DNA of 64,000 nucleotides from Eublepharis macularius (Eukaryota > Chordata > Lepidosauria > Squamata > Eublepharidae). The translations under genes and the position numbers were made by a program. Below are positions 1 through 60,656 of the stretch, one piece after another; position 1 is the first letter of the stretch, and each line of letters begins with the position of its first letter. Where the stretch lies: positions 31,007,368 to 31,071,367 of the forward strand of contig NC_072791.1 of the NCBI RefSeq assembly GCF_028583425.1. Direction: 5' to 3'. The notes beneath the pieces were generated by a model that was not told where the DNA came from, made no database searches, and saw only the letters and a program-made list of their open reading frames with translations.

Positions 1-469
1 TACACACTGTAGGCCCCACACTATTCCTGAGGACACCCCAACTCTGGGGAGTGCTTTTTGATGGTGTGTGAGACTGCAGAGATGGGAGGAGACAAGAAGG
101 TGCTATTCTGCAAGGGCATCTCTGCTTACGGTTCTTTGGATCCATCCCTGAACTTTTTATTATATTCCTGTATAATGATCGTGGCTGTATGAGAGTGTAA
201 GCTCTTTTGTATGGGTTCTATGGGGCTAACTAGGAAGCAAACATTCAATACAAATGTAAGTTAAGAAAATTTCTTCACATCAACCTTTCAACAAATCAGA
301 ACAATACAACTGTTTTTTTCTAACCAAACTCATAGGCACAACAAAGAACCAGAAACTTACAGCCAACCAGGTCTTTTAAGTTCAGTCAAGTAACTGTTTG
401 TCTCTGAAACCTCTCATGGTAAGCAAGTTCAACTTTATGGATCCAATCCAGGGAGTCCTTTGCCACAAT

Positions 470-730
470 CAGGGCTTTTTTTCTGGGAAAAGAGGTGGTG
501 GAACTCAGTGGGTTGCCCTCGGAGAAAATGGTCACATGGCTGGTGGCCCCTCCCCCTGATGTCCAGACAGAGGGGAGTTTAGATTGCCTTACGTGCTGCT
601 CCAGCGGCACAGAGGGCAATCTAAACTCCCCTCTGTCTGGAGATCAGGGGGCGGGGCCACCAGCCATGTGACCATTTTCAAGAGGTTCTGGAACTCTGTT
701 TCACTGCATTCCAGCTGAAAAAAAGCCCTG
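470..730. mobile_element. hAT-like MITE, snapback type (261 bp)
   Basis: The ends form terminal inverted repeats: CAGGGCTTTTTTTC on the left against GAAAAAAAGCCCTG on the right. Flanking 8-bp duplications are GCCACAAT (462-469) and GCTACAAT (731-738), with one mismatch. Most of the interior is one long hairpin: the arms around 541-597 and 605-675 are near-perfect complements (the block GGGAGTTTAGATTGCC recurs inverted). It has no coding capacity. The 8-bp duplication and the CAGGG-type end fit the hAT superfamily. Confidence 0.8.
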
Positions 731-738
731 GCTACAAT

Positions 739-963
739 TAGGATTGTGAGCTCCAAGTTGGGAAATTCCTGGAGATCTAGGGGGTGAAACCTGGAGAAAC
801 CTGGAGAAAGTGGGGTTTGGGGAAAGGACCTTGGCATGGCATAATTCCATAGAGTCCAGCCCCCAAAGTAGCCATTTTCTCCAGGTGAACTGATCTCTGT
901 GGCCGGGAGACCAGTTGTAATTTCGGGACATCTTCAGCCACTACCTGGAGGCTGGCAACCCTA
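739..963. mobile_element. TAGGGTTGCC-family hAT-like MITE, abutting the previous element
   Basis: Begins TAGGATTGTGAGCTCC and ends GGCTGGCAACCCTA, a degenerate inverted-repeat pair. The 8-mer GCTACAAT lies on both sides (731-738 and 964-971). This is the commonest MITE family in the window. Recognisable internal blocks are TTCCTGGAGAT, CCATAGAGT, CATTTTCTCCAGG and GAACTGATCTCTG. Confidence 0.75.
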
Positions 964-1330
964 GCTACAATCCTCCTGATATAAAGCAACCTCTTCTTGG
1001 GAATTACAGCCCTGAAATAATACTATGATTTCAATACTAATACCAAAATAAATATAACACATATACACCACTTTTAGTCACTATTGTCCACATACATGTG
1101 TTTCTGATTACCTTATTCATGGTGATAACAACAAATTAATTGTTATCAAGCTCCCCAGCAACTGGCCTCTTCCCCAGCTGTTTGGCTCTAGGTACTGGCT
1201 CCACCCTACTGGGCTAAACCAATTAGCTCATGGGGATTACAACAGCTGCTATAACATAATGATTTGTTAGTTCAATTTTCTTTAACCAATTTTCTTTTTA
1301 CTAACTATTTTAATAGGTACCTGTCTTTCC

Positions 1331-2680
1331 CTCTACTGTAGCTAATGTCAACTCTGGAAGGTGTGTGTGATTTCTGTCAAGGAAAAAGTTGTGTGGAGAA
1401 GTTAGCACCCCCATCACCCCCAAACATTAGATTCTTGATACAAATTGGTACCCTATACCTGCTATTCAATGCAGTCAAAGCCCTACATTTAAACCTCCAT
1501 TATGCCTCCCTTTTCTAAAAAGTGTGTGGTGATGTTTTCCCTCTAGGTGTTTTGATCCTGTTCTTCTTATTTAAAATCACATGCATTTATTTCCAGAATG
1601 ATACCTGAGGGTTTTTTTTAAAAAAAAATCTAACAAATAATTCCTGGTTTTCTGATCTCCCCTTCCTCACTTACGCTTGTATTATTGCTGTATGGTGTGT
1701 TTATCTTGAGGGTAGATATAATCCAGGAACCTGCCACGTGTGTTAAGTAAATGGCTATTTTTAACTGAGTTAAATACTACACACTTCTGTGGTATGTTGT
1801 GCAAGAGATATCCTCTAGTGTCATCTGACATTTTGTCCAGACACTTGTGCTAAATTTAACTTCTGAAGAGAGATAGGACAAATGACCCAATGTCAGTTTT
1901 TCAAAACAACCTTGTGGCATGAACATTTTAAAAAATACTTTTAAAAAAATGATAGTGCATAGAAAGCTCCCTTATGCCAAATCATACTGTTCATCTACAT
2001 ATCTCTAAATTGCCCATCCTAACCAACAGTAGTTCTCTGGTGGCCTGGGTAGAAAAGGATATTTCCACCTGCTACCTGAGATCCTATAGCTGGAGGTGTC
2101 AGGGACTGAACCTTCCAGGGCATTCTAGGACCTGGGAACGAAAATTCATTTACATTTCAGAAGCACCATTGGGCTGCAGAGGAGGGGGAGAGTGAGAAAT
2201 GTTCTGCAAGCAGAAATCTTTTCATCCATGGAAATGCTATGGGGGATCCAGACCCTAACTCTGAAGGTTAGTTCTGTGGTGCAGTCCTTTGGAACCAAAG
2301 CTCAAGTTCTCTCCTGCTTATGGTAGGACAGCCTCTTTCCTCCATCAATCACGCAGTTAAGTAGAGTTGCTTTCACTATATTTCTTAACATTCAAGAAAA
2401 GCGCTTTAATTAAAAAAATTCCTTAAACCTCATGGTGAAAGACAAATGCTGTTTGCAAAGCAAAGAATAGCTAGAGGGTTTTGACTCACCAAGGAAGTGT
2501 ACGCTTTTTTACATTCATGATATATTTTAATCAACGTTCCTTTAGTAACTTCAAGCTCCCCCCTTTTGTGTCCCCCTTCATTTTGAAGTTGTGTACATGA
2601 CCTTCTTGTGATATTTACACAGAGTGAAGCTGAGACTGTAATAACAGTGAGTTCCCCTAAGGTTTGAGTGGCCAGCCTGA
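1331..2680. other. AT-rich intergenic sequence, nothing recognised
   Basis: Open frames here are short and none resembles a known protein. I see no inverted-repeat element, SINE head or conserved exon. Confidence 0.4.
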
Positions 2681-2864
2681 GTCAGCAAGCAGCTAAAACG
2701 GTGCTGAGAAGCTCAGATAACTTTGTTGCTTGAAGTGAGGGCGGGGGATGTGATTTTCTGTCAACCACAGATGAGGGACTGCTCAGACAAGAAATATTTT
2801 CAGGCAGTGAGTTGGTTCCACAGAAAATTTCCACTGACAGAAGGGGAACAATTTCCCCTGTTAT

Positions 2865-2995
2865 CTCCCTCCTGCTGAAGATATCTGACTCCCCCTCATG
2901 CTGTTCTTGGGTGTCCTCCAGGGGAACTGATCTGTGTGGACTAGAGATTGGTGGTAATTCCAGGAGAACTCCAGGCTCCAACTCTAGGCCCAAGC
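2865..2995. repeat. Partial TAGGGTTGCC-family MITE
   Basis: Contains the family blocks CTCCAGGGGAACTGATCT, GTGGTAATTCCAGGAG and ACTCCAGGCTCCAACTCTAGG. The left part is missing or too diverged to see. Confidence 0.5.
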
Positions 2996-3149
2996 CATTA
3001 GCTCTGTGCAGAGTAAAAAAATGTACAAAGCACTGATTTGTGATGGTGTGTGTATTTATGTTGCCATGTGCGCTCTCCTGAAACTGCAGCAGAAACACTC
3101 AGAAGGACAAAAAGTGGTCCTGCTGAGGTGAATATAGCAAGAGTTTAGC

Positions 3150-3760
3150 ACTACCAAACAAAAGTTGTGTGTTATGTACCATCAACTTCCAACTTGTGGA
3201 AATCCTATGAATTAACAACCACCAAAACATCCTATCATTAAAGGGCCTTGCTTCAGCAAACTGAAGGCTTTATGGAGTCAAGCCATCTTGGATCTTCTTC
3301 TTTTCCTACTGCCTTCAACTTTTCATAGCATTATTGTCTTTTCCAGTGAGTCTTGTCTTCTCATGATATGACCAAAGTATGATAGCCATTTCTTGTTTTA
3401 CGGTTTTGAGCTTACTTGGATTCATACTGCTCACGTTCCATGTTCCTATTATATATGTTGCACAGCTTTGGACTTTCCTTTTGCAGCTATTCACATCAGC
3501 AACTGGACATCCTTTCAACTTTAATCCAGTCCAGTCATTAAGAACAATGCTGTGTATACTTGTCCTTTGTTCTTCTCCAGTAGCCAACTGATTGCCTTCC
3601 GACCTAAGGGTCCTATCTTCTAGTACTAGATCTTTTGTTTTGAGTTGTCTCGTCATAGTGTATTCAAGGACAGTATTCTGCACAATGCTAACTAGGGTTA
3701 GCTGAAGTGTTACTGCTGTTGTCTGTGAAAGATCCTCCACTAGTGGCGCCTTCTACTACT
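3150..3760 (-). mobile_element. RTE/BovB-type LINE fragment
   Basis: On the minus strand an open stretch within 3315-3740 contains IIGTWNVSSMNPSKLK followed by TVKQEM. This closely resembles the start of the endonuclease domain of BovB/RTE LINEs (GTWNVRSMNQGKL...VKREM). Only this N-terminal piece is seen. The downstream endonuclease and reverse transcriptase motifs are absent, so it is a truncated fossil. BovB is abundant in squamates and supplies the tail of Sauria SINEs. Confidence 0.6.
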
Positions 3761-3769
3761 GTTGCTGCC

Positions 3770-6700
3770 TAGTAGTTACCCTTCAAGAATTCCTCTACCC
3801 CCATCACAACTGTCAATTCCCTTCTGTTGATGTGACCGTTGATTCCTGAAGGGGGTGGATGTATCTTAGTCTAGTGTTTCAGCTTTGACCATTCCACCTT
3901 AAGTAACTCTGTTTATACTCTTGACTGAGTCTGAACTCATGATAATATTGCTGTCAGCTTCACTAACACACTCAAGCTCCCTTACCACATTAAAGTATGT
4001 ATTCACAACACTTTTACATGACCCTGTTTGAAATGGAATGACAGCATTTTTTGTCCTGTTTACATAGTAGCTACTATGTAATTTTTCTTTCCTTCACGCT
4101 TATTAAGCTTTAGTGACTGACAATGAGATACAGAAATATGTGTGTGAGAGGGGTTTTCTAGAGGGTAATCATGGTCTCTGTAGATGACAAGACCCCTAAC
4201 CATGTAGAAAAATAACAAAGGAGAATTATTTCATCCTCCTCACAAAATAATTTTAGTGGAGAGGAATGGAGGAGCCAACTGAACACATTTCTCAAGCCAT
4301 CAGGTATTTCTATGCCATTGAAAACATATGCAGGTACCACTGCTAATGGAGACATTTCATATGTTAAGCATGAAAATAACTGAGTGCAGCTTCCTCCCTC
4401 CAGCGTGAGAGAAGGTTCCCCCAGGTCACCTAAAGGACCGAGTTCAGGTGAGTGAGCAGCCAAGCTTTGACCCTGAAATAAACACTGGAGCACTGACGTT
4501 GGATAGAAAACAGATGGTAGGTTACTGTGCTCAACCCAAGCCCCCAGTAACTCATGTCAGCTGGAAAACTGCTGGTGCTGGGCCTCCTACTCACTGCTAC
4601 TGCTACCAGGGGTTATTAGTAGATTAGTTTAATAGGAAATAAACAAGATAATACAGTTCAAATTAAGGCACTCCAGTGGGGTTTCCAGGCAACCAGTGCG
4701 AGACAGGAAGCAGGAACAGGTGGGTGCCGTTGGCAATGTCATGATGTCACTTCAGGGGAAAACCTGGAAGTGATGTCAGTCCTCTCTAGGAATTGCCAGA
4801 AACCTGGCAATTCCTAGAGAACACTGATGATACTTCCAGGTTTTTCCATATTACTCTTGCTTCACTCTCAGTTGTTTACAAACACCACATGAAACCAGGT
4901 GTATATATTTGCTTTTTAAATCCAAGGAACTGAAATCCAAGGAATTACTTTGAATCAATTAAAATTTTGGTATGGGCCTACAGAATGTTGAAAGGGAAAT
5001 GGCTATAATATTATCACATGAAGTTCCTGATTGATACAAGATTTCTAATATGTCTGTTCCATTACTTTACTGTGTGTTAATTATTATAGAACAACTACCA
5101 TTGCAGAAATATTAAAGAGATCTATTCACTACCCAACCTGTTTAAAATAAGGTTGTGGCTAGAGTTCAAGCAGAATGTTGCTTTTTCCAACCATCACTGT
5201 GTGCGAAAGCAGAAGCAGTGCTTGTGAACTTGTGTTTGAGATTTAGTAATGCTATTTTTATGTTATCTGTTATCTTCCTCCTTTGCTAGGCTGGCTTCCC
5301 TTTCATAGACCAAGTTTGCAAGCACTTGATCGGCCCTCTCCTCGAGCAGCCCTCTCTTTCGTGTGTGATGATAGCATGAGAGCAGGCGGACAATAAAATA
5401 CAGCACCTGGTTTTTCAGAGGCACCCCTAAAGTGACAAGACCTCATGGATTTATTTTTGCAGATGACTTTTTATAATCTTTTGCAGATGTTTGGAGATTA
5501 AATATTACATTTAAGAGCAGCAAGCTGAGATAGTCCTGGAGGAAATTATTATCACCACCTTTGCAGTGCTAATAAATATTGATTATTGTTACTGAGCATT
5601 CCCAGCTATGCGCTTCTATGGGACAACTGTTCAAACATGCAATATGGTTTTTTCTTAACAGTCTTCTTTTCTAAAAAATAAAATGGAAATGATATTATGA
5701 ATGATATATATTTTGAAAAAGTAAAAAAAAAAAGAGTAAGGAGAAGCCGGTATTGTATGCCCTGGGAAACTAAATTAAAACGTTTCAGTGTGAGCCTAAA
5801 TATACATGTAATTCAGAGCACAGCTGTCAACTGATAAAAGAATTTTTGTTCATTATTTATATGCCTGTTAATTAGGGATGCTCACAGTATTCTCTATCAC
5901 CAACATTTTCTTCTCCCCTCATTTTTCTTCCTACAGATTGACAAAGGAGAAAGTTCATGTATGTATTCAAATACATACCTTCAGAAACTGTGTTCATTCA
6001 TTCAACCAAACAGATATAAAATACTTGTTGGTCAATATCAAATATATGTTCAGAGAGATAGCGCTACCTACCCAGTTCTAGATGCAGGAGCAGAAAATTA
6101 GAAGTACTGAATACCAGTGTATAGATAGATATTCAGATGAATTATGACAGAACACAGAGGCAATGGGACTTACTTGTTTCTACTCTTAATGGATTAAATA
6201 ATGAATTAATCAAGTTTACACAATGTCAAAATTGCAAAATGAGCTTTGGAACTGCTGTAAAATAATTCACAATCTAATAAGCAAAAGCTATCACTGATTG
6301 GTAGGCCATCTTTAATGTTTCCTTTTTCATTTCCTAATTGTCTTGATTTTCAGTCTTATCAAGCAGTGGATGGATACCGGAAATTGGGAGTTCAAGGTCA
6401 GGTAGGAGAGCTTCAATCTTGTTTAACAGCAGTGAAATGGAGATTAATGAAGAAGTTGAAGAAACAAAACTGAGAAATGGACTCAGGTCATAAGAACAGC
6501 TAGAGCACCATTTTAATATTTTGCTTAATGCATCAACAACATATTTAAGACAATCCTGAGAGGAGCGAATGAAGCGGTGGCACTTGAGAACTAGAGAACA
6601 GATTTTTCAGATGTCTGGTGATGTCCATCAGTCTTAAGATTCTTCTTTATCATTGCCTAAAGGTCTTGTGCCCACACAAACAAATAGTTTCCATAGTTTG

Positions 6701-8931: not shown

Positions 8932-10391
8932 GTCTCTAACCCATTCCATTTACTGATGCCATACTGCCTGTTCAGCACTCAGTTTCATGCTTAAGCCAGC
9001 AACACAATGTTTCTTTGCCAGATGCTAATATAAGCTTAATAACCCAGTTTGATATTTTAGTATATCCTGTTCTGATGTTATGGATGTAGGAAAAAAATCA
9101 CTGTCCAAACTGCTGCATTGATCATCATTGTTCGCTTATCTCAACTGAGAGGCAGGTTTGTTCTGTTTTGAGCATTTGCAGACTCCAGCATAATCATTCC
9201 TTCTACAGCTTCTGCCAAAGACCAAAGGATGGACATTTGTTGGGATTATGTTGTTTGCCACTGTATCCATGGTTTTCATTTTGAGATCTCTGTGCTTATT
9301 CCTGCTCTCATTTTGTTGATCACTGTGTTTGCTTTTGTTGATACAGTGCATGCTTTCAGCTTCTGAAGGATGGATCACTTGCATTTGGGCTAGAGTTCAT
9401 TCACTAGCTCGGCATATGCCTATGGCTCTTTGCAGAGTTAATGTAGACCTTTTGAGCACTATTTGGGTTCCTTTGTCTTTAGTGCTTATGGCTATTCTGT
9501 CTAAGCACCATATGTACATGAATCTGCCATTTTGTGCACCCTAGCAATATAATGCTCTATTGTTTCAGCAGGCTCTTGTTCACATTTATTAAAGAGAAAG
9601 CTTTCATGTATGCTGTTTCTGGTAGGTTCAAAATGCTTTTTCAGCGCTCTGATAACTTGGAGGGATCTGACTGTTGATGGTATATCCGGATGCTGCTGAA
9701 GCTAGTGACTTTCCTTCCCCGTCACAGGGTTAATAATGCTGGGAGCCTAACTTTTTCCCTTTGTCGTCCAATTCTGTTGCTGCCATTTCCAGTATATCTG
9801 TTTGTTCCATTGATGTTTGTTCCTCTTGAAGGCAGGGCTCCTTGAGCTGTTTGTCTTCAAAAAAGTTCTGACACTACATTTTTAATATTTTTGAGTTATA
9901 GATTCAGTAACTGATATTTTATTGAAAGTTAGCCAAAGGGAGTTTGCCAAAGTAAGATAAGCCAGAATAGGTCTACTTGGAAGTAAGTCCCATTTTATTC
10001 AGTGGATTTTACTCCTGGGCAAGTAGGATTGCAGTCTATGGCTCTTCCATTAGCTCTCTGACTTAAATCCCGGAGCTGCATTTCCAGTTCCTCATACAAG
10101 TCAGATAAGTCTTAGTTGCAGTTCTCCCTGTTAAATGGGAGAGCTATCTATCATAACACAGAAGTTCAAGTACATGTTTAGACATAAAGCTTGGGTAGGG
10201 TTGCCAACTCTGTCTTGGAAAATTCCTGAAGATTTGGGGGCAGTGCCTGGGGAGGGCTGAGCTTGGGGAGGGGAAAGAGAGCTAGGCAGGAATGTAATGC
10301 CATAAAGTCAGGGTTGCCCACTCATGGCAGGCAACTAGCAGGAGATCACAGAGGGCAGGGACTTATGTTTTCAGTGTTGTGATAACACCAT

Positions 10392-10603
10392 GGCCGATTC
10401 CAGACGACTAACCTTAAGCCGTTTCATGCCGCCCTCTTCCGGATCGCGACGGGGAAAATGCGAAATATCGCGTTTCCTCGCACGAGTTTTGTGCGATGAC
10501 GCGCAAAACTCGCGCGAGGAAACGCGATATTTCGCATTTTCCCCGTCGCGATCCGGAAGAGGGCGGCATGAAACGGCTTAAGGTTAGTCGTCTGGAATCG
10601 GCC
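10392..10603. mobile_element. 212-bp near-perfect snapback MITE, CpG-rich
   Basis: The whole element is an inverted repeat: GGCCGATTCC..GGAATCGGCC, with ~100-bp arms differing at very few bases around a ~12-bp loop near 10497. Flanking CAT trinucleotides (10389-10391 and 10604-10606) may be a 3-bp target duplication. It is dense in CpG, which suggests a young insertion not yet eroded by deamination. The open frames on both strands read the same peptide because of the palindrome and are not genes. Confidence 0.8.
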
Positions 10604-10795
10604 CATGACATCACTTCCAGTGTGACCCATAAGTGACATCATTGTGCCAGGGTAAAAAACAATTTAGCCTTTGTCCAAAACTCTATGGTTTAGCCATAGA
10701 GTTTTGGGCCAATGCTAGAGTGTTGCCTGACACAATAGTGTCATTTCTGGGTCATGCTGGGAGTGATGTCATGTCATCAACATATCACTGATCAC

Positions 10796-13700
10796 TAGGG
10801 GTGTGCAAGCCAAAAATTTTCGGCTATAGCCGAAAGTAGAAAGCCGAAAGAAGATTCTCTATCGTTAAAGCCGAAAGCCGAAACAAGAATCTCTTTCGGC
10901 TTTCGGCTTTCGGGATTCTTTCGGCATTCTTTCGGCATTCTTTCGGCTTTTTTCTATGGGAAAATGCCTCCGTCTTCCAGGACGCCTGGAGGAGGCATTT
11001 TCCCACCGAATAAGCCCAAAATTGGTGGGGACCTTCCTCTAACCCTTCTCTAACAACCACCCAAGTTTCAGACAGATTGAACTTCCAAAGCAGGTCCCCC
11101 CATCCTCCCATAAGAAAGCGAAGGAGCAGCATATTGTTAGCATGCTGCTGCTCATCTTTCTTCATTATTTCCTATGGGGAAAAAATGAAGAGGCAGGCTT
11201 CCTTTGCCAGGGGTGGCATTTTGCATGCAAAATGCCCCCCAACCCTCTGGGGCCCTTCTCCCACCCCTCCTCCCACCCCCCACCAAGGCTCAGCCTGCTC
11301 CCACTTGGGGGGGGCATTTCATGGCCTCCCCAATTAGGTGCTCTGCTCTCATCTCTACCACTGACAGCTGGGGGAGGCTTGTCTTGCCAGGGGTGGCATT
11401 TTGCATGCAAAATGCCCCCCAGCCCTCAGGGGCCCTTCTCCCACCCTTCCTCCCACCCCCCACCAAGGCTCAGACTGCTCCCACTTGGGGGGGGCATTTC
11501 ATGGCCTCCCCAAGTAGGTCCTCTCAGCCCCTAAAGTCCACCCCTTACAGCCCCACACAAACCCAATTCCCCCCAGCTGCCACACACAGACCCAAATCCC
11601 CACATTAGCCCCTCACAGACCCAAATCCACCCCCACCTGCCCCATACCCATAACCCCAGGAACAGGCTGGCAAAGGCCAGCCCTCTCCCTTTGTTCCCTA
11701 TGCTGGGAACTAAACTCTCTTTCCCAGGGCAATTCTGCACAGCCCAGGGGTGCCACAATGGTGGGCACACTTCTGAGTGCCAGCTGGTCCCTGTGAAAGA
11801 GCACCTGAACCACAGACACCCTCCCTCAAATTCCCCCACCACCTACAGAGATGGCTGGCCAGCCAGCCCCATTGTTCCCTATGATGGGAACCAACTGCAC
11901 AACAAAGAATAAAACAAGAACAACACAAAATAAAGTTTTAAAAAAATATTTTCTCCCTTCCAAAGTACAAGTAGGCAAAGCATTATGACACATTACACCA
12001 GCAGTCCCCCACACAGAAAAATTAAAACAAAACTCACTTAACATCAGAGAATCACAAAACACGATTCCTGTCAAAAACACTTTATTTCTTGAACAGCTTT
12101 AGGTTACACAGCAGGGGGGAACACCAAAGGGCATGGCAGCACTATCTTACACAAAAATAACACAACTCACTTAACATCAGAGAATCACAAAAACACAATT
12201 CCTGGCAAAAACACTTTATTTCTTGAACAGCTTTAGGCTACACAGCAGGGGGGGGGGACACCAAAGGGCATGGAAGCAGTATCTTACACAAAAATAACAC
12301 AACTCACTTCACATTAAAGAATCACCCCAAAAATTGCTGTCAAAAGCACTTTATTTCTGTAACTGCTTTAGGTTACACAGTAGGAAGGCACCACAGAGCA
12401 GGAAAGCAGTGTACTACACAAAAATAACACAACTCACTTCACATCAGAGAATCACACAAACACAATTGCTGTCAAAAACGGTGAAGTGGGTTGTATTATT
12501 TTTTGTAGTACATTGCTATCATGCCCTGTTGTGCCCTCCTACTGTGTAACCTAAAGCTGTTCAAGAAATAAAGTGTTTTTGCCAGGAATTGTGTTTTTGT
12601 GATTCTCTGATGTTAAGTGAGTTGTGTTATTTTTGTGTAAGATAGTGCTGCCATGCCCTTTGGTGTTCCCCCCTGCTGTGTAACCTAAAGCTGTTCAAGA
12701 AATAAAGTGTTTTTGCCAGGAATTGTGTTTTTGTGATTCTCTGATGTTAAGTGAGTTGTGTTATTTTTGTGTAAGATAGTGCTGCCATGCCCTTTGGTGT
12801 TCCCCCCTGCTGTGTAACCTAAAGCTGTTCAAGAAATAAAGTGTTTTTGACAGGAATCGTGCTTTGTGATTCTCTGATATTAAGTGAGTTGTGTTATTTT
12901 TCTGTGTGGGGGACTGCTGGTGTAATGTGTCATAATGCTTTGCCTACTTGTACTTTGGAAGGGAGAAAAAAAATTTAAAACTTTATTTTGTGTTGTTCTT
13001 GTTTTATTCTTTGTTGTGCAGTTGGTTCCCATCATAGGGAACAATGGGGCTGGCTGGCCAGCCATCTCTGTAGGTGGTGGGGGAATTTGAGGGAGGGTGT
13101 CTGTGGTTCAGGTGCTCTTTCACAGGGACCAGCTGGCACTCAGAAGTGTGCCCACCATTGTGGCACCCCTGGGCTGTGCAGAATTGCCCTGGGAAAGAGA
13201 GTTTAGAAGTTCCCAGCATAGGGAACAAAGGGAGAGGGCTGGCCTTTGCCAGCCTGTTCCTGGGGTTATGGGTGTGGGGCAGGTGGGGGTGGATTTGGGT
13301 CTGTGAGGGGCTAATGTGGGGATTTGGGTCTGTGTGTGGCAGCTGGGGGGGAATTGGGTTTGTGTGGGGCTGTAAGGGGTGGACTTTAGGGGCTGAGAGG
13401 ACCTACTTGGGGAGGCCATGAAATGCCCCCCCAAGTGGGAGCAGTCTGAGCCTGGGTGGGGGGTGGGGGGAAGGGTGGGAGAAGGGCCCCTGAGGGCTGG
13501 GGGGCATTTTGCATGCAAAATGCCACCCCTGGCAACACAAGCCTCCCCCAGCTGTCAGTGGTAGAGATTAGAGCACCTACTTGGGGAGGCCATGAAATGG
13601 CCCCCCCAAGGGGGAGCAGGCTGAGCCTTGGTGGGGGGTGGGAGGAGGGGTGGGAGAAGGGCCCCTGAGGGTGAGGGGGCATTTTGCATGCAAAATGCCA

Positions 13701-14149
13701 CCCCTGGCAAAGGAAGCCTGCTTCTTCATTTTTTCCCCATAGGAAATAATGAAGAAGATGAGTAGCAGCATGCTAACAATATGCTGCTCCTTCGCTTTCT
13801 TATGGGAGGATGGGGGGACCTGCTTTGGGGGGCCATAACATGGCCCCCAAAGTCCAATCTGTCTGAAACGTGGGTGGTTGTTAGAGAAGGGTTAGAGGAA
13901 GGTCCCCACCAATTTTGGGCTTATTCGGTGGGAAAATGCCTCCCCCAGACGTCCGGGAAGACGGAGGCATTTTCCCATTGAAAAGCCGAAAGAAAGCCGA
14001 AAGAATCCCGAAACGTTTCGGCTTTTTTCTTTCGGCTACCCGAAACGTTTCGGCATTCCCCGAAACGTTTCGGCATTCCCCGAAAGAAGCCGAAACACTT
14101 TTGTTTCGGCATTCTTTCGGCATTCTGAATGCCGAAACGCACATCCCTA
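10796..14149. mobile_element. 3,354-bp palindromic hAT-like element
   Basis: Outer ends TAGGGGTGTGC and GCACATCCCTA are inverted repeats, flanked by identical 8-bp duplications CTGATCAC (10788-10795 and 14150-14157). The arms of about 1.65 kb (10796 to about 12480, and about 12485 to 14149) are highly similar in inverted orientation. From outside in, each arm has GCCGAAAG/TTTCGGC clusters, two blocks holding GGCATTTTGCATGCAAAATG, a CCCACC-rich stretch, a ~200-bp unique block, and about three ~134-bp tandem units. No transposase is recognised. Open frames inside mirror each other and are shadows of the palindrome. Confidence 0.85.
12068..12880. repeat. Inverted tandem array of ~134-bp units at the palindrome centre
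   Basis: The left half has units starting at about 12072, 12206, 12341 and a partial at 12473. The right half has the same units in reverse orientation (AAGTGTTTTTG recurring at about 12571, 12705, 12839). Each unit contains AAGAAATAAAGTGTTTTTG or its complement, so canonical AATAAA hexamers recur on the plus strand right of centre and on the minus strand left of centre. Confidence 0.8.
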
Positions 14150-14460
14150 CTGATCACCCCTCCTCATTTCCTCAGCATTCCCCCCACTGACCCCCAGCTG
14201 AGCAGGGCTAGAGGGCAGGTGACCTCCTTACATACAGCCCACCCTCCAAATCTGCCATTTCCTCTAGGGGAACTGATCTCCGTTTTGTTCGAGAACTCCA
14301 GGCCCCACCAGAATGTTGGTAACCCAGAGTTTGGGTGACCTTGAGCCAATCATAACCTACTAGCTGAACATACCTCACAGAGTTGTGATGATGAAATGGG
14401 GATAAAACATGTGTGGCTACCTAAGCTCCTTGAATAAAGCATGGGATAAAAATTAGGTTT

Positions 14461-15828
14461 ATGTTCTAAAAAGAAAAACCCTTAAAATTTTTCTGTTCTG
14501 GTCAACAGAGTTTTTCTCTTCACGTCCCTTTAAATTTCAGCAATATGGCCATATATGGTTTACTTGTCCAGGACAATAAATAAATAATGATGTAACAAAA
14601 AAGGTCAGCTTTGTGTCATGTCGCAAAGGGATGTTGAATAAAGTAAAGTTCTACAGATAATGCAGCAGAGAGAAACCTTCAGAGCATTAAAAGTCACTTT
14701 GCCATAAACTTCACACAGGAAATCTGAGATCCAGAGCAACTTATATTTTGGCTTGTAATCGGTGATCATGGGGTGATCCAGAAATAAACTCCAGACTTCA
14801 AAGAGGGAGAGAGTTCAGAGCTGCTCTGCAGTTTATCAACACACAGAGACGGGAGAGAGATGCTTCCGAGGGGATTTTCCGAAATAAGATTTCATCAAGA
14901 AAAATAACTCTGGGTAAACTTTCCTACAGAGACAATAAGGTAATGCATTTATGCTTGCTTTATATGTATTGATTTGGTCCGGAACATGAAATACGTTTAC
15001 AATATACATAGCTGTTCCTTTTTCCAAATGTTGCATTGCATTGAATTAGGCATAGAAAGTTATTACGTGTACAGTACATTGGAACACAGAAGACTTTTCA
15101 AGCAGAATTTATTTGATTTCTAAAATATAAACATGTGATTAATGGTTCTCCACCCCCACACCCACGCAGAGGCATATGGTTGGCATGTTTTATGTCTTTT
15201 CTTTCAAAGCATAATATGCTGAATTGGTAGATGCTAACATAGGAAGCTTATAATGCAGTCTTAAGAACACTTTCCTGGGAGAAAGGCCCACTGAACAGAC
15301 CTGAGAAGGAGTCTGAGTAGACCTGCTTAGGATTGCTCACATTTAGTGCCACCCTAAGCAAAGTTGTACCCAATGGGCTTGGAAGGATGTAACTCAGTTT
15401 ATGATCAGCACTGTGCATACGTACAGTTTCTGGCCACAGAACAGATTTTTGCAAGAAAATGGTAAAGAAATGTTAAGTTACAATTTCCTTCTTTCAGATT
15501 GTTTCAGATGCTGTCTGAAAATGCTACAAATGGCAGAGGGAAGCAATGCGCTAAGGTTTAATATAGTATAAGAGTGAAAACCAGTTGCATCAAAGTGTTT
15601 GAGCAAAATCAGGAACCAATGGCAGTGTGTGCGATGTGCCAAACTAATTTCATAAACAGTCCGATGTATCTAGGCAGCTGCAGACTGATGAGATTTGTTT
15701 ACTCAGAGATGTTTCATCATCTGGAAACTTCATTCCCTGTCTTTACCGGCTTGCGGCAATCATTGCGGCAAAAATATGTTTGTCTGCTCCTGAACTGTTA
15801 CATGCGGTCGATCTAAAAATATTAGCTT
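14461..15828. other. Intergenic, little recognised
   Basis: About 15250-15345 resembles the short AGTCTTAAG..CTTAGGATTGC palindromic MITE family. The rest shows no repeat or coding signature. Confidence 0.35.
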
Positions 15829-39700: not shown

Positions 39701-42700
39701 ACTAGATATATTTGGCCAGCACAGGCAATCCATGCAGTTCACAAACTAGTGGCATGTTTTTAAGCTGTGCTGGCCTCTCACCTACCTACATAATGGATGG
39801 TGACAACAGAGTTCTAACATGTATAATATTCATAGTGTATGTAATCCAAGGAACAATGTCGGGAAAGAGTCTAGGAAGGGTTTAGAAAGTGGGCCTGCCA
39901 CTTTAGGGGAAGGAAGCTCAATCACAGAAAGGGAAGACAGGAAGAACAATGAACTGGGAGTTGCAAGTTGGGGTGGAGGAAAGTCTAGTTTTCTCCAATA
40001 CAATTATGTTAGTGTTTGAAGCAGCTAAAGGTTTGAGCAGTGCTTCATGAACCAGGCAGAGTTTATATGTGTATATATATATAAACATACACACATATAG
40101 GCTTTGCACAGAGTTTACTTCTAAACTTCTTTTTAGTGCTAAGACACTCCAGAGTAAGCAAGAGATGATGCCTTGTGGTACCTGATTTATGATTTATTTA
40201 TGATTTATTAGGTATTAAATTATCTTCTGTTGATCAAGTCTATAGGGATTATAAATTGTACAGGATTTTGTGGCATCAGTAGGAGAGTTCTATAGAACTT
40301 GATTGCTTGCTGCGGAGCACTGATGGAGAGTTCTTGTTCCTAGATAAAGATGCCAGTCCAATGAGTTTTGATGAGTGGAATATATTCTTGTATCAGGAGG
40401 ACTGATGCTAGGTAGCTAAGGGCCAGCCCATACATTACAAAGCTCTCCCAACTCTTAGATGCTAGGAAAGGAAGCTGGAAGTCATGTCTGTTCTTCGATT
40501 CATTTCTGCTAGGATTGTCAAAATGCTGCTCCCAGTCACCAGCCGCACTCGGATCAAGCGCAGCGGCATCAGCCCACTGCATATGGCAGCGGAGTGCAAT
40601 CGTGATGACGTCTTGGAAGAGCTGGTAGAGGCTGGCTTTGATGTGAACGCCACCCTCTCTTTTGAGCGTGCCCGCCTCTATGAGGACCGGCGCACCACTG
40701 TTCTCTACTTTGCTGTAGCTAACAACAATGTCTATGCTACTGAACTGCTGCTCGAGGCTGGGGCGAATCCCAACATTGACCTCATCAACCCACTGCTCAT
40801 CTCCATCCGCCATGGCTGCCTGAAGATAATGAAGCTGCTCCTTGATTATGGCGCCAATATCAATGCTTACATTGCTTCCCACCCTACTACTTTCCCTGCT
40901 ACCATCATGTTCTCCATGAAGTACCTTGCTGTTCTGAAATTCCTGATGGATATGGGCTGTGATGGCAACTCCTGTTTTGACTGTCTGTATGGGTGTGGCC
41001 TGCATCCTGCCATAGAAACTAGAAGGGACAGATATAATGATTCCCTGGAGGAGAAACAGCCACATCCAGTACAGGTATGCTTACTTCTTGGAGGAAAGTG
41101 TATGATCGTAATTTAGTGGAAAGTGCATGATCGTAATTTAGTGGTAACATCATCTTTCCTTAGAAAAGTTTCCAGATTTAGTATCTGGCTTCTCTGTCCT
41201 GTCCTGTCAAGTAACAGGACTAGGAAAGGTTTCAACCTGATCTCCCAGAGAACCACCAACAGGGTGACAGTTAAGTGTCAGTTTGGTGTAGTTGGTGTCA
41301 GTTGGTCTGAAAATGTGGGTTTGATTCCTCACTTCTCTGCTTGAAGCCAGCTGGGTAACCTTGGGTCAGTTACAGCTCTTTCGGAGCTTTCTCAGGCTCA
41401 TCCACCTCACAGGGTGATTGTTATGAGGATAATAATAACACACTTTGTAAACTGCTTTGAGTGGGCATTAAGTTGTCCTGAAGGGCAGTATATAAATCAA
41501 AAGTTGTTGTTGTTAGATAAAACACTGGGCTAGCTTAGCTTAATCTTACAAGAGGGAAACAGGTCAGTAAGAACTGCTCAAACTCCAGTGGTGTCCAAAG
41601 TTTTATTAATATTTAAATTTGGATCACTTCTTGCTGCAGTTACTTATATTTATGTTGATCCAGTACTTCCTCTTGGTTTATAAAAATCTTTATCAGCCAT
41701 GATGCTCACTGTGTTGTCTTTTGTAACCAACATCCATCGGAACATCATAAGATTGTCATGAAGATTAAGAGAGGTCCCTAGCAGTGTAAAGAACTTTGTA
41801 CCCCGAAAAGTAGTAAAAGAATTAGGAACAATCGTTCAGTCCTCCATGCCAATGGAAAAGCAGGACATAACGCTTAAGGAATTGTAATAAGCATATAAGG
41901 AATGAAAGCTCAAAGTGTAATTTATCCACTAGAGGGCATTTAAACTATTTCACTGAGAGCAAAAGAGAACTATGTTTTTGACATGCTCTTGCTTTCTTCA
42001 GATATCTTGTTATATTACAAATGGGGTACAGGTATATGCAATACAAAATTGTCATTTCTGAGTTTTCCAAAAGTCCATCAACCCCAGGAGTAGGATTTCA
42101 GGAGCACAGAAGACTGTGGCAGCATGGGGCACATGGGGAAGTTCTCTCCTGCAAGCACTGCTGAGCTTATGGTGCATAGGATCTAGCCCTTAATACGCAG
42201 TAGTAAATTTGGTAGGTTTTTGTCCAAAGTAAGATAGCAGATATTTTACCTGATATAGTATCATAGTATTGGGCTCAAATTTGGTATATATCAACAAACT
42301 GGTACCCACCATGTGAAAATAAACAGTATCTGATACAGATGCAGTTGAAAATTATGCTTTATATTGTACCTTTTATTTTCCCCATTACATCTATACAAAG
42401 CTAGTAATCATTCTTCAAGAATTAGATCTGCCATTTGTAGACTCTCTAACAATATATATTGCCCTGACCTGGATAGTCCAGGTGAACCTGATCTTGTCAA
42501 ATCTCAGCAGCTAACCAGGGTTGGCTTTGGTTAGTAATTGGATGGGAGACCTCCAACAAAGACCAGGGTTGGAGAGGCACACAATGGCAAACCAGCTCTG
42601 TTAGTGTCTTGCCATGAAAACCCCACTAGGGGTCGCCATATGACAGCTATGACTTGAGGACAATCTCCACCACCACCTATATATCTTAATTGTATCACAT

Positions 42701-53879: not shown

Positions 53880-54870
53880 GCACCATTCCCGCCCCCAGCC
53901 TAAATGTACCCAAAGACGCTGAAGATGGGCGGCGGCGCGGCTGGCTTGGTGGGGATCGGTTTCCACACTACGGGCCGGTGTATCTTCTGGCCCGCCCCGC
54001 CGCCGCCCGGCTTCAAGAAAGCGGCCCCTTCCGTGGAGGAGGCTGCGCTTTTCCTCCAGAGCCCCAAGCCCGAGAAAGGGGCAGCGGGTGGGAGGGCGGC
54101 TGTGAGGGCCGGCGGGTAGACGCCGCCGGGGGAGGCTTGTGGTCCGTGGTACTGAAAAGGGCAGCAGCTCCAGGCACTCAGGGCCTTATCAGGCCCGCTC
54201 GAGGGGCTGTCGGAAGCCGCGACCTTGGCGCCCTCGGGCGCTTTTTTACTTTTCTTTTCCTCATAAAGGGCTGCGTCCTTCGAGGAGGCGGAGGTGCCCG
54301 TTCGGAAGGCCCCTGCGCTGACGCCGAGCGGGCCCGCAGCCGGCCGGGGCTCTTCCCAAAACGAGGCGGGCAGCTGTCTTTTCCTCATGGGCACTTGGTC
54401 GGGCCTGGCTGTCGCCTCAGAGGCGCTCTGCTGCCGCTCGCTGCCGGGCTCTGCGGCCTTGCAGGCCTTGTGCTCGCAGTTGCTGCTCAGGCCCACGGGG
54501 GACTCCGCGCCCTCGGCGCTCGGGCCTCTCGCTCTCTCCTCAGGCGCCTTTCGCTCCCTGGCGTGTGGCGGCGGCGGCGGCGGCGGCTGCAGGGAGTGGT
54601 GGCCTCGGGGCAGGCGGGAGTATTTCTGCGAGAAGCGTTTGAGCTGCTTCTGCAGGTACTTCCTGTGGTCGACGGAGCGGCGGCAGGGGGCCGATTTGTC
54701 CAGGGCGGCCTTGATGTCGCTGGAGGCCAAGTTGACGAAGTTGAGGAGGGTTTTCACCTCGCTGTCCGCCGAGGCCATCTCTCACCAGGGGAGCCGCCGC
54801 GGGGAAAGGAAGGAAGGGTCGTCCATGAAGAGCCGTCTCGCTGGGCAGAACCTGGAAGCGACCAACGTAA
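53880..54870. promoter_or_regulatory. CpG-rich island over FAM181A
   Basis: GC and CpG content rise sharply across the coding exon and about 90 bp upstream, against an AT-rich surround. This explains the long antisense frame at 53834-55054. Whether the promoter lies here or at a distant untranslated exon is not visible. Confidence 0.6.
53900..54778 (-). CDS. FAM181A: FAM181A, TEAD-interacting protein
   Basis: A single uninterrupted 292-aa frame; human FAM181A is of similar size. The N-terminus MASADSEVKTLLNFVNLASS, with SAPCRRSVDHRKYLQKQLKR (about 29-48), is the family's conserved block. VPMRKRQLPASFWEEPRP (about 129-146) resembles the TEAD-binding omega-loop of YAP (LPDSFF). AWSCCPFQYHG, GLGLWRKS and the end KPIPTKPAAPPPIFSVFGYI are also conserved. 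A polyproline run (about 65-71) comes from a GGC-type triplet repeat. Family members bind TEAD transcription factors and are expressed in neural and embryonic tissue, so a nuclear role is likely. The start is the conserved MAS. Tail to tail with ASB2, as in mammals. Confidence 0.95.
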   Translation of the reverse strand: MASADSEVKTLLNFVNLASSDIKAALDKSAPCRRSVDHRKYLQKQLKRFSQKYSRLPRGHHSLQPPPPPPPHARERKAPEERARGPSAEGAESPVGLSSNCEHKACKAAEPGSERQQSASEATARPDQVPMRKRQLPASFWEEPRPAAGPLGVSAGAFRTGTSASSKDAALYEEKKSKKAPEGAKVAASDSPSSGPDKALSAWSCCPFQYHGPQASPGGVYPPALTAALPPAAPFSGLGLWRKSAASSTEGAAFLKPGGGGAGQKIHRPVVWKPIPTKPAAPPPIFSVFGYI

Positions 54871-58862: not shown

Positions 58863-60656
58863 TAAACATATACAAGTTTAAAGACATAGCATTAGCAAGG
58901 ATCCAAGACATAGCAGAGATACTGAAGCAAAACATAATCATTTCTAGGACTAACATTAGACAGCATGGATCGATGGTTGGCCACCCTACTCTGATCCCTT
59001 CCTGCTTCCCCCCCCCCCACCTCTCTGATGGTTCAGTTGTGGAACTATGTGTTCTGAGGTAAAAATCGGGTCAAGAAACTGCAGACAGTTGAAGAAAGAC
59101 AGTACAAGACTCCTGAATAGGGATTTTATATGAAAGTCAGTATGGCAAATGAGTTTTTAAATGTTCATGGGGAGATGGTGCATGACCTTCCTAGGGGCCA
59201 TTTCAATGTGACCCTCTCACATGAACCTACCAAAGTGCCCACTACACCACTCCTCCCTCAGTCCAACTCCACCTCACACCTCTTGCAGCCATCACCTTTT
59301 ATTGCTCCCAAGAAGCCTCCAGGCAGACATCGTGCAGGATACTAAAAGGAGGAAGGGGTGTTTTGAGGCACTGTGTATAACCTTCAAAGATGTCAGGGGC
59401 TACAGGAGAGTGATGGGGGGAATCATCGGGCTGCTGGTTGGAGACTTCTGGCAGACTCTGCCAGTAGTCCCAAGGGAAACTCGAGCTGACGAGGTTATTG
59501 TGTGTGTCAAGGCATCGTATCTGTGGCCCCTCATCAGGAAACTCTCACTAAGAAAGAACATGAGGGTCCACTTGGTCCACTTGAGAGGCAAGGTGTCTGC
59601 TAGGGAATTCTCTGAACTCCTACTAAAAATAGAGGACAGAGAGTATCCTGAGTTCAAGGGAAAGGTGACCATACCTGCAGATCTGGGCACAGTAATGATG
59701 ACCCTAGCAGACCTAACAGCCACAATATACCCTGATATTGTCACTATAACAGAGAAGTCCATGGACTGGCTGTGCAAGTGTGCCATTCTGACCCCCAAGA
59801 ATGACAAGGTTGCCATCATTAATGAAACACAACTCCCTCAAAGGGGCAGAAATGGAGTACAGATCTGGGGTCTCAGTGGGGCAAATGGATGACATGGTCC
59901 ACTACCCGTGGAGTTCCTCAAACACACTCAACCCTCCTGGCATCCCAGACCACAAGTTTCTCCTCAAAGTGGGGGCTGCAATGATGCTGTTCCGGAACCT
60001 CAACTAACCCAAACTCTGCAATGGCACCAGACTGTGAGTTACAGCCCTCCACAGGAACGTCATCGAGGCCACATTGTTCACCAGCAGTGCTTGGGGTGGT
60101 GGTGGTGTTCATACCACACATACCACTCATACCATCAGAGAATCCCTTTGAATTTAAGAGACTGCAATTCCCCCTCAAGGCCTGCTTTGCTATGACAACA
60201 ACTCTCAGGGGCAGACACTGAAGGTGGCAGGAATTGACTTGAGGGAGGATTGCTTCTCTTGTGGGCAGTTCTACGTGGCCTGCTTCAGACTGAGCTCACC
60301 CAGCAGCCTGGTGATCCTAGCACCTGAGGGGAAAACCACCAATGTGGTCTACAAAGAGGTCCTTCAGTAGAAAAAAACCAGTTGTACATATTTTTCACTT
60401 TATTTATTGCACTACAATCTTTTCCTTTTAAAAATCTCTTAAATAACTGTTACATTTCGAATTTCACTTCATCAGTTTTCAGCATCAACACACTTCGCTT
60501 TATTTAAATACTTTTGTGAAGCTCGGGTACTATGCTATTATACTACAAAACCAACTGAAACCCCCCACCCAAACCAAAAAATGTTATATACCCATAAGTA
60601 GTATAGTTGGACTTAAAGTAGTTAAATGCTTTAGCGAAACACGGGTATCAAGCTAG

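Follow-up and report, generated by a model that had tools for sequence, protein, structure and literature searches.

The 64-kb window, the whole stretch of DNA that was analysed, contains a 3354-bp element that is a near-complete palindrome flanked by identical 8-bp duplications (Table 1). Self-BLAST of the region returns one inverted match at 10919–14013 over 3144 columns, with an identity of 93.1% when gaps are counted and 96.1% when they are not. The longest perfect complementary runs measure 231 and 230 bp. The first-pass annotation had described two long inverted arms between exact copies of CTGATCAC, and both features are present. Its description of a whole-element palindrome applies to the arms, which mirror each other, and not to the tips: the first 123 bp and the last 136 bp lie outside the arms and are distinct. 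The terminal repeats at the two tips are alike at 10 of 11 positions (TAGGGATGTGC for the right tip read inward, TAGGGGTGTGC for the left). According to the alignment, ~37 bp at the centre occur on the left side only and the arms otherwise nearly meet. Open frames in the palindrome have 70–163 aa.

Table 1. Features of the palindromic element and its target site in the window.
Feature	Position	Strand	Remark
Left target site duplication CTGATCAC	10788..10795		exact repeat at 14150..14157
Left tip, not part of the arms, with TAGGGGTGTGC as terminal repeat and subterminal repeats of the TTTCGGC type	10796..10918	+	
Left arm	10919..12442	+	10844-11972 is 87.3% identical to the left end of the 9.7-kb element L052+L050
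Two 153-bp direct repeats in the left arm, 180 bp apart	11192..11524	+	93.5% alike
Left inner tandem array, 137 bp x 3.4	12026..12479	+	contains minus-strand AATAAA
Central spacer, ~37 bp, left side only	12443..12479		from alignment; junction in 35/41 copies
Right arm, reverse complement of the left arm	12480..14013	-	
Right inner tandem array, 134 bp x 3.2	12484..12905	-	contains plus-strand AATAAA
Part of the right arm	12855..14013	-	87.4% identical to the inverted left end of the 9.7-kb element
Right-arm repeats, 175 bp x 1.8	13396..13710	-	
Right end	13982..14149	+	92.9% identical to the right end of the larger element
Right-only tip, ending GCACATCCCTA	14014..14149	+	
Right target site duplication CTGATCAC	14150..14157		exact repeat of 10788..10795

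The left flank at 10604–10773 is an imperfect palindrome of ~170 bp (76.6%) with many older copies elsewhere (71–86%), and the element is inserted beside or in this repeat. Elsewhere in the window, a 223-aa open frame on the plus strand (59221–59892) matches PIF1-like helicases (63 bits) and is perhaps a Helitron fragment, and a 292-aa open frame on the minus strand (53900–54778) matches TEADIR3 (34.9 bits) and perhaps represents a host gene. A 210-aa open frame with ankyrin repeats lies at 40484–41116 on the plus strand, and a 127-bp unit is present in two perfect tandem copies at 46958–47213.

The ends of the element are found throughout the 2.24-Gb assembly (72 contigs). Allowing up to three mismatches, a 29-mer from the left end occurs at 3,469 places and a 32-mer from the right end at 3,312 places, and the reversed-pattern controls gave none. 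The right-end count covers both palindromes and the larger elements described below, which have this end in common; the left-end count also includes larger elements, because their left tip differs by three bases. A first sample was obtained by scoring the first 405 bp of the window element at 40 of 1136 candidate places, and 20 copies were fetched. Perfect 8-bp duplications flank 39 of 42 palindromic copies: 18 of the first 21, the window copy included, and 14 of 14 and 7 of 7 in two further sets selected by exact ends. For the set of 14, exact-end pairs were taken in the order in which they occur on contig C1, beginning with the first and skipping one that had already been sampled. In the three exceptions, the right end was not found (L013), no duplication is present (L017), or 7 of 8 positions agree (L027). 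L054 and L056 have the same duplication, are 99.6% alike and are perhaps a duplicated locus. Further copies with the same ends, as the first-pass annotation had predicted, thus exist by the thousands of ends and with their duplications.

On C1, 80 exact window-type left ends lie within reach of the right-end list. Of these, 66 have a corresponding exact right end at a spacing of 2568–4158 bp (median 3494) and 14 are unpaired. A palindrome-sized left–right pair at C1:86379819-86383521 of the assembly (G000) includes an additional left tip that points inward and lies ~370 bp short of the right end.

Of the 100 exact right ends listed on C1, 34 have no exact window-type left end. We read 901 bp inward from 20 of these and found 7 palindromes and 13 elements with another interior, which share just the last ~160–170 bp with the palindrome. 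Two of the 13 (L052+L050 and L049) were read further. L052+L050 is complete, extending over 9734 bp from TAGGGGTGTGCAAGG to GCACATCCCTA with the duplication CTGGAAAC; its right end is the same as that of the palindrome and its left end is nearly the same. Its transposase gene, oriented leftward, is broken into two overlapping open pieces and lies outside the stretch that the palindrome arms resemble. L049 has an uninterrupted transposase frame of 921 codons, in which a Pfam scan detects zf-BED (33.9 bits) and Dimer_Tnp_hAT (57.3 bits), both above the cut-off; the best solved relatives of this transposase in the PDB are Hermes structures.

The best 49 of 17,713 candidate genes, the top of that list and no random sample, are all uninterrupted 921-codon frames at a rounded identity of 100%. 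Seven transposase gene DNAs, six of which were chosen for identical protein, differ by 0–1 of 2763 nt. For each of the 15 top genes on C1, an exact larger-element left tip in the expected orientation lies 5.0–5.4 kb past the gene's 3′ end. The corresponding distance in L050 is ~2.3 kb, and its left non-coding part is therefore ~3 kb shorter than that of intact elements. The left 29-mer of the larger element occurs at 1,099 places with at most one mismatch. On C1, 27 of its 47 exact left ends have a corresponding exact right end no more than 25 kb away, while 20 are unpaired. Twenty of these pairs span 9.7–20.4 kb (17 of them 9.7–13.3 kb), and the other seven, at 2.3–3.8 kb, are palindromes with a larger-element-type left tip, one of them much reduced, all with perfect duplications.

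Between the transposase gene and the right end, L050 contains two arrays of a 171-bp unit (4521–5404 and 5917–6568, with 5.2 and 3.8 copies), and related repeats occur in L049 in other numbers. The arm-like stretches of the L049 element are split up and partly repeated. Pieces of L051+L049 at positions 1–4000 match the L050 element at 1206–1428, 462–642, 739–901 and 1023–2281, in this order, so that the left part seems rearranged or partly repeated. A whole-genome search for the hAT dimerisation domain gave 4145 first-look candidates, and all of the 150 that were scored are above the cut-off; the genome is hAT-rich.

The hAT assignment made in the first-pass annotation agrees with the 8-bp duplications, with the short terminal inverted repeat common to the palindrome and the transposase-bearing element, and with the BED finger and hAT dimerisation domain encoded by elements with the same ends. 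A P-type transposase such as that of Galileo is not indicated, since hAT and BED domains are all that the Pfam scan detects in the partner. Duplications of Ac-type hAT elements follow nTnnnnAn. Among 39 distinct duplications (38 from palindromes and one from L050), 31 have T at position 2 and 29 have A at position 7, a bias with exceptions, and this pattern would place the element with the Ac type. Ordinary hAT MITEs are non-autonomous, have hAT ends and 8-bp duplications, and reach high copy numbers at a few hundred bases. The window element shares their ends and duplication, and the sequences of its arms and tips are similar to those at either end of the 9.7-kb element, although its direct parent was not found. 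At 3.35 kb, and within the range of the 66 paired copies given above, it is a hAT element far longer than usual MITEs. Taken together, it is very probable that the window element is a non-autonomous Ac-type hAT transposon that is moved in trans by the transposase of larger hAT elements, and that its palindrome was formed once. We infer that the 921-aa transposase of the partner would mobilise it.

A search with the inner 1601 bp of L058 gave 34 places, the query included, that match over the full length at a rounded identity of 100% among the 40 best-scoring. Movement has thus been very recent, as judged by these near-identical places in one subfamily.

The arms of the palindrome exchange sequence. 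In the absence of exchange, two arms of one copy are expected to differ at least as much as arms taken from different copies. Among 34 copies, 27 had both arms long enough for the comparison; in these, the arm distance is 0.0174 within copies versus 0.0202 between copies, and none of 20000 permutations equalled this difference. After removal of L026 and a four-copy subfamily, the values for the remaining 22 copies are 0.0185 and 0.0197 (118 of 20000 permutations). Furthermore, a 35-bp gap is present in both arms of L053, L058 and L066, in which the outer left/right differences are kept; the same gap is found in L060 by alignment column and no other of the 59 arms has it. In L026 the arms are 0.16% apart, with the right tip kept. 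In a tree of the arms, neither the left nor the right arms form a clean side (two changes each, with the right arm of L026 and the left arm of L012 misplaced), with 20 of 28 inner branches open and the bootstrap not settled. The first sample had suggested that left/right differences change gradually from the tip towards the centre; a test on 34 copies and 56 columns did not support such a gradient (Spearman -0.06, p 0.64), which was dropped, part of the columns being muddled by the alignment of tandem repeats. L025 hints at a flip of the central segment, which we do not claim.

The two tips stay unlike. Exact tips on C1 (127 left and 100 right) form 73 left–right pairs of 1.5–6 kb, versus one left–left and one right–right pair of palindrome size, suggesting that unlike tips are needed. 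The palindrome is not fully stable: a large portion of one arm is missing from 6 of the 20 complete-ended copies of the first sample, counted with the window copy included (L009, L015, L016, L017, L022 and L027). It is conceivable, but rather unlikely, that the palindromic build is itself advantageous, with arm-to-arm conversion renewing the arms and passing new variants to both while selection keeps unlike tips apart. If this were true, a multi-kilobase palindrome would be a lasting, still amplifying vertebrate replicator and not a doomed by-product.

The sequence of the arms points to the left end of a larger element. Over its first ~1.2 kb, the 9.7-kb element aligns with the left arm in direct orientation and with the right arm in inverted orientation, and its right end aligns with the last 168 bp of the palindrome (identities in Table 1). 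Weak homology (66%) runs on to ~1.35 kb from the left end, and all inner tandem units match one single stretch of ~130 bp. Near the junction of the right arm and the right tip, within TTTCGGC-type repeats, 33 bp of the larger element's right end match the left arm of the palindrome perfectly in inverted orientation. A template switch during repair would fit this match.

From these comparisons, we infer a route with one origin. Repair after excision of a larger element would have copied its left end twice: a strand entering from the right end may have switched, within the TTTCGGC-type repeats that both ends have in common, to the left end in inverted orientation. The product of this step would have lacked the transposase and contained two arms derived from the left end, placed almost head to head. 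Expansion of the inner 134-bp unit would have followed, and copies would have spread by cut-and-paste while their arms recombined. The ~3 kb of additional left non-coding sequence in the intact elements and the split arm-like pieces of the L049 element weigh against this reading. The arms are 91–100% identical to the 9.7-kb element at ~160–880 bp from its left end, and the identity falls further inward to ~88–92, 81, 77, 68 and finally 43–58%. Because of this drop, the 9.7-kb lineage may not be the direct parent, which may be an unseen lineage; the drop may also reflect repeated end exchange or constraint on the ends.

Formation of palindromes in several separate accidents, instead of once, seems improbable. 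It could account for the seven palindromes (one much reduced) with the left tip of the larger-element type instead of the window type, for the nearly identical arms of L026, and for the 6 of 41 copies that lack the common central junction (L009, L017, L025, L063, L065 and L068). However, the other 35 of 41 copies have this junction in common at no more than six mismatches over 40 bp, among them six of the seven palindromes with the larger-element tip, and this shared centre disfavours repeated de novo formation. In addition, the outer left/right differences are nearly fixed, separating 31 of 31 left arms from 27 of 28 right arms at two columns, and the exceptions can be explained by arm conversion, tip exchange and deletion. 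At positions 171–560, the seven palindromes with the larger-element tip are 98.7% (left, six arms) and 98.3% (right, seven arms) identical to the larger element, compared with 97.7% (30 left arms) and 97.1% (27 right arms) in the other palindromes, a weak indication that the seven may have taken their outer arms from the larger element. The first-pass annotation had found it unclear how so long a snapback arises and stays stable; a partial answer is probably that the palindrome originated once, from a larger element's left end, that its arms exchange sequence and that deletions are frequent.

One may speculate that transcription of both arms would yield a double-stranded RNA of ~1.6 kb, as raised in the first-pass annotation. 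AATAAA is present at 11908 and 11929 on the plus strand and at 12982 and 13003 on the minus strand, ahead of the centre whichever strand is read, with further occurrences past it, so that a transcript need not read through both arms. The likeness of the arms might be kept by selection for a hairpin RNA, such as a source of small RNAs silencing the larger element, instead of by conversion and recency. The arms resemble the region downstream of the transposase gene, and a hairpin transcript might therefore match the 3′ untranslated part of that gene. We consider such selection very unlikely, given the AATAAA motifs on each strand and the six complete-ended copies that have lost much of one arm, four of them with perfect duplications and one with 7 of 8 positions. 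A scan of 10000–15000 against Rfam at gathering thresholds gave no match, and patchy conversion requires no selection. Finally, assembly programs can go wrong on long palindromes, yet it is scarcely credible that this locus is a fold-back of the assembly, or host DNA that was duplicated in place in inverted orientation without mobility, and both are excluded for the family by the many copies and their 8-bp duplications. No exact or close empty site of the window copy was found in the genome, but when the two window flanks are joined and the element is left out, the resulting sequence matches 13 older paralogues across the insertion point (71–78%) among the 42 matches listed.

Foldback elements of Drosophila resemble the window element in their very long inverted repeats, and have another transposase type and are not known to have hAT-type ends. 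The nearest known system by superfamily is gadMor-hAT-1784 of Atlantic cod, a palindromic hAT MITE that has lost its transposase, with insertions of ~1.3–1.4 kb and inverted repeats of ~600 bp made of 167–169-bp tandem units, which is discussed at inversion breakpoints (PMC12368964). Both are hAT-derived vertebrate palindromes without transposase and with tandem units in their arms. The gecko palindromes differ in size (2.1–4.2 kb), in their thousands of ends, in their unlike tips and in having uninterrupted partner genes; the available text on the cod element names no intact partner (PMC12368964).

By build, the nearest analogue is Galileo of Drosophila, which has very long inverted repeats with internal sequence recruited into the arms, and for which arm-to-arm transfer has been proposed (PMC4168063; PMC2775673). 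One copy has arms of 4.2 and 4.7 kb with ~140-bp tandem repeats and no transposase segment; in D. willistoni, no functional copy was found among 191 and markedly extended arms are described in only three (PMC4168063; PMC2775673). Foldback elements are named alongside Galileo (PMC2775673). The window element is like Galileo in its very long arms, in the tandem units of ~140 bp seen in that one copy and in the proposed arm transfer; Galileo belongs to the P superfamily and to insects, whereas the window element is a hAT element of a vertebrate. None of the titles and abstract openings found, which cover the literature in part, announces a 3-kb hAT palindrome at such copy number.

Near-perfect palindromes of several kilobases are thought to be fragile. 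Here, a palindrome of this supposedly fragile type has been copied thousands of times, in one subfamily very recently, and this very recent spread is accompanied by dozens of uninterrupted, near-identical transposase genes. The stability of palindromes, the conversion between their arms and the need for unlike tips can thus be measured over many natural replicates in one animal genome, and the larger element is a candidate active hAT transposon for laboratory tests.
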